From an uncultured Burkholderiales bacterium (GTDB taxonomy: Bacteria; Pseudomonadota; Gammaproteobacteria; Burkholderiales; Burkholderiaceae_C), in the NCBI GenBank assembly GCA_903820745.1, contig CAIJIT010000071.1, positions 1 through 43,881 on the forward strand: a DNA stretch of 43,881 bases. Reading direction: 5' to 3'. Below the pieces are notes generated by a model. It was not told the DNA's origin. It saw nothing but the letters and a program-made list of their open reading frames with translations, and made no database searches. This document shows positions 41,058 to 43,609 of the stretch, one piece after another; the stretch's first letter is position 1, and each line of letters opens with the position of its first letter. The translations under genes and the position numbers were made by a program.

Positions 41058-42599
41058 TCATCCCTGTGCAGAGACGCGTTCAATTTTGCTATGCAATTTG
41101 TTCAATGCACTCAAATAGGCCTTGGCTGAAGCCACGACGATGTCCGGATCGGCACCGACGCCGTTCACCACGCGACCGCCATGCTGCAACCGGACAGTCA
41201 CTTCGCCTTGAGATTCAGTATTGCCGCTGGTGATCGCGTTGACCGAATAAAGAAGCAACTCTGCTCCGCTCTTGACGGTCGACTCAATCGCGCGAACGGT
41301 CGCGTCGACGGGTCCGTTGCCATCACTCTCGGCACGATGTTCGACCTGCCCGATAGAAAATACCACGCTGGCATGCGGCCGCTCGCCGGTTTCCGAGCGC
41401 TGCGAGAGTGCGACCAGCCGGTAATGCTCCTGTTCGGAGCTGACACCTTCGTCCATCACCAGCGCGATGATGTCCTCGTCAAAAATCTCGTTCTTGCGGT
41501 CAGCCAGATCCTTGAACCGGACGAAGGCATTGTTGATTTCCGCTTCGGACTCCAGCGCAATGCCAAGTTCATGCAGACGCTGCTTGAATGCATTGCGACC
41601 ACTGAGTTTGCCCAGAACGATCTTGTTGGCAGACCAGCCAACATCCTCGGCCCGCATGATTTCATAGGTGTCGCGAGCTTTGAGTACGCCATCCTGATGG
41701 ATACCTGAGGCATGTGCAAAGGCATTGGCCCCGACAACGGCCTTGTTCGGTTGAACGACAAACCCGGTCGTCTGCGATACCAAACGCGAGGCCGCGAGGA
41801 TCTGCGACGCATCGACATTCAGGTCCAGTCCGAAATAATCGCGCCGGGTCTTGAGCGCCATCACGACCTCTTCGAGCGAGCAGTTTCCAGCCCGCTCGCC
41901 CAGGCCATTGATCGTGCACTCGATCTGCCTGGCACCACCGATTTGCACACCGGCTAGGGAATTGGCAACCGCCATGCCGAGGTCATTGTGGCAATGTACC
42001 GACCAGATTGCCTGATCCGAATTGGGCACACGTTCGCGAAGGGTCTTGATGAAGTTGCCATACAACTCAGGAATCGCATAACCAACCGTATCGGGAATAT
42101 TGATAGTCCGCGCGCCTTCCTTGATGACAGCTTCAACCACTCGGCAGAGAAAGTCCATGTCGGAGCGGTAGCCGTCCTCAGGCGAAAACTCGACGTCGCC
42201 CGTCAGGTTGCGGGCAAAACGGACCGCCAACGTGGCTTGCTCGAGCACCTGCTCACGCGTCATACGAAGCTTTTTCTCCATATGGAGTTCGCTGGTGGCG
42301 ATAAAGGTGTGGATGCGCGAGCGCTCGGCCCCTTGCAAGGCCTCAGCAGCCCGGGCAATATCGCGATCATTGGCTCGTGCCAGCGAACATATGATGCTCT
42401 CGCGCACCGCACCGGCAATCGCCTTGACAGCCTCGAAATCACCGTTCGATGAGGCGGCAAAGCCGGCCTCGATCACATCGACGCGCAAGCGTTCGAGTTG
42501 ACGCGCAATGCGCAGTTTTTCGTCCTTGGTCATCGAAGCGCCGGGCGACTGCTCGCCATCGCGCAAAGTCGTATCGAAGATGATCAATTGATCTGCCAT
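41058..42599 (-). CDS. leuA: 2-isopropylmalate synthase
   Basis: LeuA condenses 2-oxoisovalerate with acetyl-CoA, the first committed step of leucine synthesis. It has 513 residues from [17 protein letters not shown], with AGGAG at good spacing; the longer frame is not needed. The catalytic TIM barrel has the metal-binding D in '[12 protein letters not shown]' and the 'HCHNDLGMA' histidines. The 'GIHQDGVLK' segment and the C-terminal leucine-sensing domain (about 390-513) are intact, so feedback inhibition is expected. The upstream leader peptide and attenuator add transcriptional control by leucine supply. Confidence 0.96.
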
Positions 42600-42625
42600 G
42601 AGGGTCTCCTGAAGCGCCAAATTGA

Positions 42626-42664
42626 AAAACAAAACGGCCCGCGAAGCTGCTGCTTGGCGGGCCG
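42626..42664 (-). terminator. leu attenuator terminator
   Basis: Read leftwards: CGGCCCGC (42664-42657), then an inner stem AAGC/GCTT around AGCA, then GCGGGCCG (42642-42635) and TTTTGTTTTT. It lies between the leader peptide and leuA. A GGGCC segment in the leader coding region (complement of 42709-42713) can pair with the first arm to form an antiterminator. Confidence 0.85.
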
Positions 42665-42695
42665 GGGATGCAAAGAAATCTTGTGACGTTTGCGA

Positions 42696-42752
42696 TCAGC
42701 GTGCCCGAGGCCCGTTGGATAGCATTAGCAGCAGTGAATGCAAATTCGTCAT
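42696..42752 (-). CDS. leuL: leu operon leader peptide
   Basis: The 18-residue frame reads MTNLHSLLLMLSNGPRAR and stops with TGA. Five of 18 residues are leucine, including a Leu-Leu-Leu run (CTG CTG CTA) and another CTA codon. It lies between pssA and leuA and is followed by a strong intrinsic terminator. Slow translation of the leucine codons when charged tRNA-Leu is scarce would favour the antiterminator and leuA expression. The start has only a weak GATGG before it and lies 20 bases after the pssA stop, so coupling is possible. Too short for coding statistics; the leucine run plus terminator is the evidence. Confidence 0.75.
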   Translation of the reverse strand: MTNLHSLLLMLSNGPRAR

Positions 42753-42772
42753 ACCATCAATATAGCACGGCC

Positions 42773-43609
42773 TCATTGGTGAAGGCCTTTTTCATCAGGC
42801 TCGTCCGTTGAAATCGCGATCAGACTGACCGGCCGGCCCTTCACACGCTTGTAGATATAGATCGCATAGCCCGATACACCATAGCCACAAAACAGGCTGA
42901 AAAGAACGATCGGGGGATCAATATTGATGACCGCTATGCCCAAGGCAATCGCCACAATCACGACAAACGGCACTGAGCGTTTGAAGCTGACATCCTTGAA
43001 ACTGAAAAAGGGAATGTTGGTCACCATGGTCAAGCCAGCATAAAGCGTGAACGCGAACGCTACCCAGGCCAACGTCGGATTACTATGAATCGACTTGAAT
43101 CCAGCATCATCCAAGGTCCAGACCAGGCCGGCGAGCAAGGCTGCAGCAGCCGGACTTGGCAGACCCTGGAAAAAGCGCTTGTCGACGACAGCCAAGTTGG
43201 TATTGAAGCGCGCAAGTCGCAGCGCGGCGGCGGCACAATAGATGAAAGAGGCGAGCCAACCCATCTTGCCCAGGCCCTGCAAGGCCCAGATATACATGAT
43301 CAGCGCAGGGGCGGCGCCGAATGACACCATGTCTGAAAGACTGTCCATCTGCTCGCCAAATGTGCTTTGCGTATTGGTCATCCGAGCCACACGCCCATCC
43401 AGGCTATCCAGCACCATCGCACAAAAAATACCATAAGCCGATTGTTCGAAACGGCCATTCATCGCCATCACGATGGCGTAAAAGCCACCGAACAGGGCCG
43501 CCAGCGTAAACAGGTTGGGAAGAATGTAGATGCCCTTGCGGCGCGGCCGAACCGGTGCCACCAAGTCATCATCATCATTCAGTTCGGAAGGGTTCTTGGA
43601 ATCAGTCAT
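42773..43609 (-). CDS. pssA: CDP-diacylglycerol--serine O-phosphatidyltransferase
   Basis: This membrane enzyme makes phosphatidylserine, the precursor of phosphatidylethanolamine. It has 278 residues. The CDP-alcohol phosphatidyltransferase motif spans 68-93: D68, D71-G72, A75-R76, G85, D89 and D93. Several hydrophobic membrane segments surround it. This is the type II (integral membrane) enzyme, not the E. coli peripheral type. Linkage pssA-leuA is common in Betaproteobacteria, where the pair is often the end of an ilv-psd-pssA-leuA cluster. Here a transposon end lies about 27 bases before the start, and no good ribosome binding site is seen. Confidence 0.94.
   Translation of the reverse strand: MTDSKNPSELNDDDDLVAPVRPRRKGIYILPNLFTLAALFGGFYAIVMAMNGRFEQSAYGIFCAMVLDSLDGRVARMTNTQSTFGEQMDSLSDMVSFGAAPALIMYIWALQGLGKMGWLASFIYCAAAALRLARFNTNLAVVDKRFFQGLPSPAAAALLAGLVWTLDDAGFKSIHSNPTLAWVAFAFTLYAGLTMVTNIPFFSFKDVSFKRSVPFVVIVAIALGIAVINIDPPIVLFSLFCGYGVSGYAIYIYKRVKGRPVSLIAISTDEPDEKGLHQ

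Follow-up and report, generated by a model that had tools for sequence, protein, structure and literature searches.

A predicted leucine attenuator, probably with a leaderless leader, between pssA and leuA of Burkholderiales

The gap between pssA and leuA in the window (by which we mean the whole 43,881-nucleotide stretch of DNA that was analysed) very probably contains a ribosome-mediated leucine attenuator that controls leuA. On nearly all testable features of its sequence, the protecting 1:2 stem excepted, the element reads as a leucine attenuator that is ordinary in principle. The analysis establishes its anatomy, its conservation, the rare-codon bias of its leader and its covarying terminator, and the results of folding agree with the order of events proposed below. 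Switches of this kind are well known; this one occurs in a group without a described case in the literature searched, and its leader is probably leaderless. Among the open-literature matches listed, judged by title and start of abstract, none concerned a leucine attenuator in Betaproteobacteria or Burkholderiales, and an earlier mention is possible. A 2004 survey of attenuators in Proteobacteria (Vitreschak et al.) reportedly covered gamma- and alphaproteobacteria. If the prediction is true, leuA of a large environmental group is subject to leucine attenuation, and the leader responsible has no match in Rfam.

We propose the following order of events. RNA polymerase would start at an extended −10 promoter within the pssA–leuA gap, at or beside the leader AUG, and ribosomes would load on this 5' AUG of the leaderless RNA. 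When charged tRNA-Leu is ample, the ribosome would run on to the stop codon and sit over segment 2 (CGGG), so that the terminator (3:4) would form and transcription would end at the U-tract near 42625. When charged tRNA-Leu is scarce, above all the isoacceptor reading CTA, the ribosome would stall in the leucine run and leave segment 2 free. The 2:3 stem would then form as segment 3 emerges, no terminator would arise, and leuA would be transcribed. In many relatives, readthrough would take in a second 2-isopropylmalate synthase gene that lies ahead of leuA, as well as leuA itself. The leuL attenuator of Salmonella and E. coli uses a 2:3 and 3:4 stem scheme. The features of the window are collected in Table 1; leuA would be the gene under control of the switch.

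Table 1. Features of the pssA–leuA region, in order of transcription (coordinates are those of the window).
Feature	Coordinates	Strand	Basis or remark
pssA, CDP-diacylglycerol--serine O-phosphatidyltransferase	42773..43609	-	NCBIfam TIGR00473, 114.4 bits (cut-off 107); upstream gene
Extended −10-like element TGC-TATATT, TGCTATATT	42759..42767	-	Ends 6 nt before ATG; sequence and column profile
Leader ORF, 18 codons, MTNLHSLLLMLSNGPRAR	42696..42752	-	Probably leaderless; predicted +1 at or beside A of ATG
Extra Leu codon TTG	42743-42741	-	Leader frame
Main leucine control codons CTG CTG CTA (ATG) CTA, codons 7-11	42720..42734	-	CTA enrichment in relatives' leaders
Segment 2: CGGGCC (42714-42709) and CGGGC (42707-42703)	42703..42714	-	Each can pair with terminator 5' arm (antiterminator)
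Segment 3, terminator 5' arm, CGGCCCGC	42657..42664	-	Sequence, terminator parse, covariation
Segment 4, terminator 3' arm, GCGGGCCG	42635..42642	-	Sequence, terminator parse, covariation
U-tract, TTTTGTTTTT, predicted end of attenuated RNA	42625..42634	-	Sequence
AGGAG, likely leuA Shine-Dalgarno	42606..42610	-	Sequence, by inspection
leuA, 2-isopropylmalate synthase, 513 aa	41058..42599	-	NCBIfam NF002087 (897 bits) and TIGR00973 (699 bits), above cut-offs

The gap is 173 nt long on the minus strand and contains both the leader frame and the terminator. The original prediction had described an 18-codon frame with five leucine codons and a Leu-Leu-Leu run, and this was confirmed: the frame reads ATG ACG AAT TTG CAT TCA CTG CTG CTA ATG CTA TCC AAC GGG CCT CGG GCA CGC TGA, with leucine at codons 4, 7, 8, 9 and 11. 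The strong terminator that it had placed before leuA was likewise found. This intrinsic terminator (42664-42625) has perfect 8-bp arms followed by a U-tract, and it lies 31 nt beyond the leader stop. When the 173-nt gap was shuffled with dinucleotide composition kept (n = 20,000), a comparable leucine-rich frame arose in 134 shuffles and a comparable terminator in 55, and both arose together in 1.

We surveyed 109 loci in which leuA lay downstream of a detected pssA. Removal of repeats (L050, L051 and L068, which repeated other loci, and L041 and L042, which repeated a genome) left 104 distinct loci. Loci without a detected pssA were left out (L029/L043, L040, L049, L067, L071, L100, L110, L122, L126, and the short loci L016-L021 and L025, in whose place L034-L040 were used). 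Leader and intrinsic terminator were both present in 89 of 92 loci of the same-family type, a class assigned by family code or by the place of named records among the nearest leuA matches and not locus by locus; they were present together in 0 of the 12 loci (of 104) from other families of the order. The three loci of the same-family type that had no leader (L063, L087 and L105, with pssA–leuA gaps of 81, 110 and 39 nt) are apparent losses of the attenuator. The 89 leader loci comprised 87 distinct sequences, and among the named loci with it are Roseateles, Rubrivivax, Acidovorax, Polaromonas, Hydrogenophaga and Limnohabitans; Polaromonas sp. JS666 (L117) is one of these loci. Alignment of relatives had been named in advance as a check on the prediction; the alignments revealed conserved leucine codons and mutually exclusive stems, as expected of an attenuator.

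A covariance model built from 23 leader-terminator sequences found one copy in the window's own genome. Under stricter filters, which lose weak matches, the model matched 113 of 150 family genomes (107 of 141 genera); a search of 200 genomes from the order gave matches in 4, including the own genome and two of the same family. Twenty of the family matches, hand-picked down the match list and not a random sample, were inspected: 19 lay between pssA and leuA or a second leuA-type gene, and the remaining one was a partial second match of one genome with neither gene beside it. In G200, a genome of a different family, the element precedes a leuA-type gene, and no pssA match was found on the 5-kb stretch. 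A search of positions 42500-42900 with the Rfam covariance models gave no match at E up to 10 and none at the gathering score. The Rfam family of the leuL attenuator is Leu_leader.

The choice of leucine codons in the leaders was strongly biased. The leaders (89 loci) were 15-32 codons long with 3-7 leucines each, and CTA accounted for 211 of their 402 leucine codons, as against 0.44% of the 3,406 leucine codons of leuA at the same loci. In PMC1183508, the leu attenuator of S. typhimurium is said to have three CUA control codons, and a change from CUA to CUG to lower its sensitivity (Carter et al., cited there); the same text states that rare codons are not universal in attenuators.

The terminator was supported by covariation. 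In alignment A1 (23 sequences), 100% of 163 cells of the terminator pairs were paired, with 6 two-sided changes, and in alignment A2 (31 sequences) 98.7% of 310 cells were paired, with 19 two-sided changes. RNAalifold recovered the terminator from both A1 and A2; upstream of the terminator its only structure was a weak stem (3 pairs in A1, 5 in A2) made from the CGGG segment and the bases following it.

The leader probably begins as a leaderless RNA from its own promoter, with a start site predicted from the sequence upstream of the frame. A −10-like TA...T ended 6-9 nt before the leader ATG at all 89 loci, although part of the agreement among loci, in leucine content and in the −10 element, comes from selection, since the leader parser favoured leucine-rich starts with TA...T 4-9 nt upstream (at L072 and L075 an inner ATG beside the −10 was taken as the leader start, and not the upstream start). 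The extended form TGnTAnnnT preceded 87 of the 89 leaders. In the −10 profile the T, A and last T were fixed by the search pattern, with a preceding TG preferred; the fourth position was not so fixed and was A in 86 of 87. No Shine-Dalgarno-like motif preceded the leader ATG at any of the 89 loci, and no −35 was conserved in the column profile, whose information stayed at or below 0.22 bit between −32 and −6. The usual spacing of a −10 element would place +1 at or beside the leader AUG. The extended −10-like element had been missed by the original prediction.

A separate start bears on how leuA relates to pssA. The original prediction had placed the attenuator inside a pssA–leuA transcription unit, so that leucine would act on leuA and spare phospholipid synthesis by pssA. 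The second part of this claim would hold, for a different reason: leucine would spare pssA because the transcript that leucine controls starts downstream of that gene, and not because of attenuation inside a common unit. The leuA gene would have its own transcript and would not simply be the tail of the pssA transcript. RNA entering from pssA would stop at the terminator whatever the leucine supply, because the leader frame in such RNA lacks a Shine-Dalgarno sequence. The leaderless layout predicts that transcripts entering from pssA are stopped in this manner, and it offers a natural test of attenuation without a Shine-Dalgarno sequence.

The most serious rival treats the hairpin as simply the unconditional terminator of a transcript arriving from pssA, with the small frame there by chance. 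We consider this improbable. The terminator does follow pssA, itself located after ilv genes in the two relatives examined (ilv names by inspection), and an unconditional terminator would indeed stop readthrough from upstream, in which the internal frame has no Shine-Dalgarno sequence. However, such a terminator leaves unexplained the leucine-rich frame at 89 of 92 loci, the CTA bias, the −10-like element before the leader ATG and the retention of segment 2 across reading frames. The hairpin may play the unconditional and the attenuator role at once.

Segment 2 also called for a correction of the original prediction. The GGGCC that it had located at the end of the frame is present, but sits at codons 14-15 and not at the very end; it can pair with the first arm of the terminator as claimed, but the segment that relatives share is the CGGG 7 nt downstream. 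This second CGGG copy of the window begins at leader nt 46 (42707) and aligns with the relatives' segment. The window's two CGGG copies correspond to one per reading-frame register of the two main groups of relatives. Segments 2 and 3 paired in 97.8% of the 138 cells of the 23-sequence alignment and in 96.8% of the 186 cells of the 31-sequence alignment, and slid controls were paired in at most 52%. No two-sided changes in 2:3 were found in either alignment (23 and 31 sequences). The terminator thus covaries, whereas the antiterminator is invariant, and the support for 2:3 consists of invariance and register shifts without covariation.

Other measures of the 2:3 pairing weigh against the model. 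Compared with shuffled versions of segment 2, the real one paired above the 95th percentile in only 45 of 87 leaders, and own-species pairing hardly differed from cross-species pairing (16.6 versus 15.9), because the core is invariant. Eight leaders had no CGGG; 3 of these pair as GCGCTG:CAGCGC in another register, and 2 as GCGCGCG:CGCGCGC. Pairing and folding both point to an antiterminator that cannot coexist with the terminator and that a ribosome standing on the stop codon would hide. Conservation, CTA bias and pairing together argue for the layout of a classical attenuator that had been proposed.

The position of the CGGG also speaks to what is being conserved. Across the 87 leaders, the last CGGG was in frame 0 in 38, in frame 2 in 40 and in frame 1 in 1, and the peptide tails vary by lineage (PRAR, RVR, GRRR, GRDV, HGQVW). 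Because CGGG is kept across different reading frames, selection seems to act on the leader RNA and not on the tail of the peptide. This matters for a second rival, that the leader peptide acts by its own sequence or that the terminated transcript is itself a trans-acting small RNA. The precedent is rnTrpL/peTrpL of S. meliloti, a leaderless leader RNA described as acting in trans (PMC7298713). Nevertheless, the RNA segment persists across lineages whose peptide tails differ, which makes a conserved peptide function unlikely, and we regard this rival as very improbable as a replacement for attenuation. A role of the leader RNA in trans could exist beside attenuation.

We folded the leaders in silico with and without a ribosome, using a transcript that ended just past segment 3 and counting 2:3 as formed if at least 4 of its 5 core bases were paired. 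With a ribosome at the first leucine of the main run, 2:3 formed in 81 of 87 leaders; at the last leucine of the run it formed fully in 47 of 87 (81 of 87 with at least 3 of 5 bases); and with a ribosome at the stop codon it formed in 26 of 87. When the free region was shuffled, a stalled ribosome gave 2:3 in a mean of 24.6 of 87. Without a ribosome the antiterminator formed in 27 of 87, the window included, and did not form in the other 60, the count being of the 2:3 stem. For the window, 2:3 was fully formed with a stalled ribosome and absent once the ribosome stood on the stop codon; it also formed by default when no ribosome was present, which speaks against a clear protecting 1:2 stem there. 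In full-length minimum-energy folds the terminator won in 86 of 87 leaders even with a stalled ribosome; therefore the model depends on the order of synthesis and not on equilibrium. The overall fold of the leader was not unusual by itself (minimum-energy folding, z = −1.31). It is conservation, and not the leader fold, that carries the case for the attenuator.

Some leaders have a further element, which we call segment 5. Located after the U-tract (8-32 nt past the terminator in L023, L053, L081, L103, L113 and others), it is present in 48 of 87 leaders, where it forms strong pairing with the loop and the 3' arm of the terminator (score at least 18), for example as CCAGCAAC/GTTGCTGG, CCCGCAAC/GTTGCGGG and CCAGCGAC/GTCGCTGG. 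No such segment was apparent in the window or in its closest kin (L001, L005-L015). Over all 87 unselected leaders, a shuffle P of 0.05 or lower was reached by 44 and one of 0.01 or lower by 29, and mean pairing was 18.5 for own and 15.0 for cross-species combinations. In alignment A3, whose 36 rows were picked from the 48 best-pairing of the 87 leaders and whose pair counts consequently lean towards the helix, 5 of 9 pairs had two-sided changes and 93.2% of 322 cells paired, with slid controls at or below 46.6%. On A3, RNAalifold folded the terminator in preference to 4':5. Two functions were considered for segment 5 and neither was adopted. The idea of a lock on the antiterminated fold drew little support: with segment 5 included and the ribosome stalled, 10 of 48 leaders had 2:3 in their minimum-energy fold (at most 1 of 87 without segment 5). 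The idea of a second terminator fits only some leaders, 15 of 48 having at least 4 T in the next 7 nt (background 6.7%).

Leaders of another kind were found in other families of the order. Among 42 such loci, 36 had a leaderless candidate, and 34 of these contained LLR (upstream of leuA at L028-L033, L046, L047, L130-L135, L137, L140, L159-L171, L173, L174, L176 and L179). These 34 include many close relatives (L029/L043 being one genome) and comprise 33 distinct leaders. Thirty-one of the 34 end in LLR(P/L/V)AR with at most 2 more residues, and all 34 have CTGCTGCGY. Their leucine codons are mostly CTG, with CTA in only 5 of 267. A search of the same kind as for the window's family found an intrinsic terminator in 0 of the 34. 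The 20 nt after the stop codon are 46% C and 11% G. In these families the LLR leaders may constitute a leucine switch of another kind; that the LLR(P/L/V)AR leaders work through Rho or on translation is our guess. Leucine control of leuA translation or mRNA stability, and not of termination, is the least probable rival for the window itself: other outputs seem possible where Burkholderiales families have a leucine leader and no intrinsic terminator was found, but in the window's family a covarying terminator with U-tract is present at 89 of 92 loci.

We offer one broader reading, possible rather than probable: that Burkholderiales share one old leaderless leucine sensor before leuA, the output of which was rebuilt several times. 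Under this shared-sensor reading, the output in the window's family would be the intrinsic terminator. The segment 5 hairpin would fit the antiterminated state and might lock it, act as a second, weak terminator or serve as a target for released leader RNA. In the other families, the arrangement would be an LLR(P/L/V)AR leader with a GC-rich RNA hairpin at its end and a C-rich stretch after the stop codon. Segment 5 and the terminator-less LLR(P/L/V)AR leaders are leads on how one sensor changes its output.

The predicted attenuator can be set beside known systems. Like the window, leuL of Salmonella and E. coli has a leucine leader frame whose control codons are CUA, together with an attenuator ahead of the leu genes (for S. 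typhimurium, PMC1183508). The window's leader is shorter (18 codons versus 28 in E. coli leuL; PMC6123439) and, unlike leuL, it lies between pssA and leuA, is apparently without a Shine-Dalgarno sequence, has its AUG at or beside the 5' end, and lacks an Rfam match at E up to 10. The trpL/rnTrpL leader RNA of S. meliloti resembles it in having a 5' end at the leader ATG, making it a possible leaderless mRNA (PMC7298713); it differs in responding to tryptophan, in its 14-residue leader and in belonging to Alphaproteobacteria, and its 5' end is reported whereas that of the window is predicted. In Campylobacter and other Epsilonproteobacteria, LeuL is, like the window's leader, a small frame with rare leucine codons, there upstream of leuABCD; the LeuL RNA ends shortly past the stop codon, and the C. 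jejuni peptide differs in having 28 residues (PMC3847290). The LEU element of Actinobacteria likewise has a leader frame with a leucine run upstream of leuA, but it forms a pseudoknot whose base stem includes the leuA Shine-Dalgarno box, and it is not classical attenuation (PMC1262725).

The surroundings of the attenuator vary among relatives. Directly upstream of pssA, at the contig end, the window has the 3' end of a TnpB-like (IS200/IS605-type) gene (43881-43657, minus strand), a partial match of 38 bits that is below the cut-off. The same place is occupied by ilvC in the close relative L005, where the gene order is ilvC-pssA-leader-leuA; in L034 the order is ilv genes-pssA-leader-second leuA-leuA (ilv names by inspection of translations in both). 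The second leuA-type gene of L034 (5984-7675) is a 2-isopropylmalate synthase of the other type (NF002991, 870 bits). Other loci with a pssA–leuA gap of about 1.9-2.2 kb also have a second 2-isopropylmalate synthase gene between attenuator and leuA. Where such a gene intervenes, the attenuator would control both genes. The nearest named leuA matches of the window include Roseateles, Methylibium, Ideonella, Rubrivivax and Piscinibacter, which are all members of Burkholderiales. Elsewhere in the window, the Rfam sucA RNA motif was matched at 11974-11891 on the minus strand (80.2 bits).
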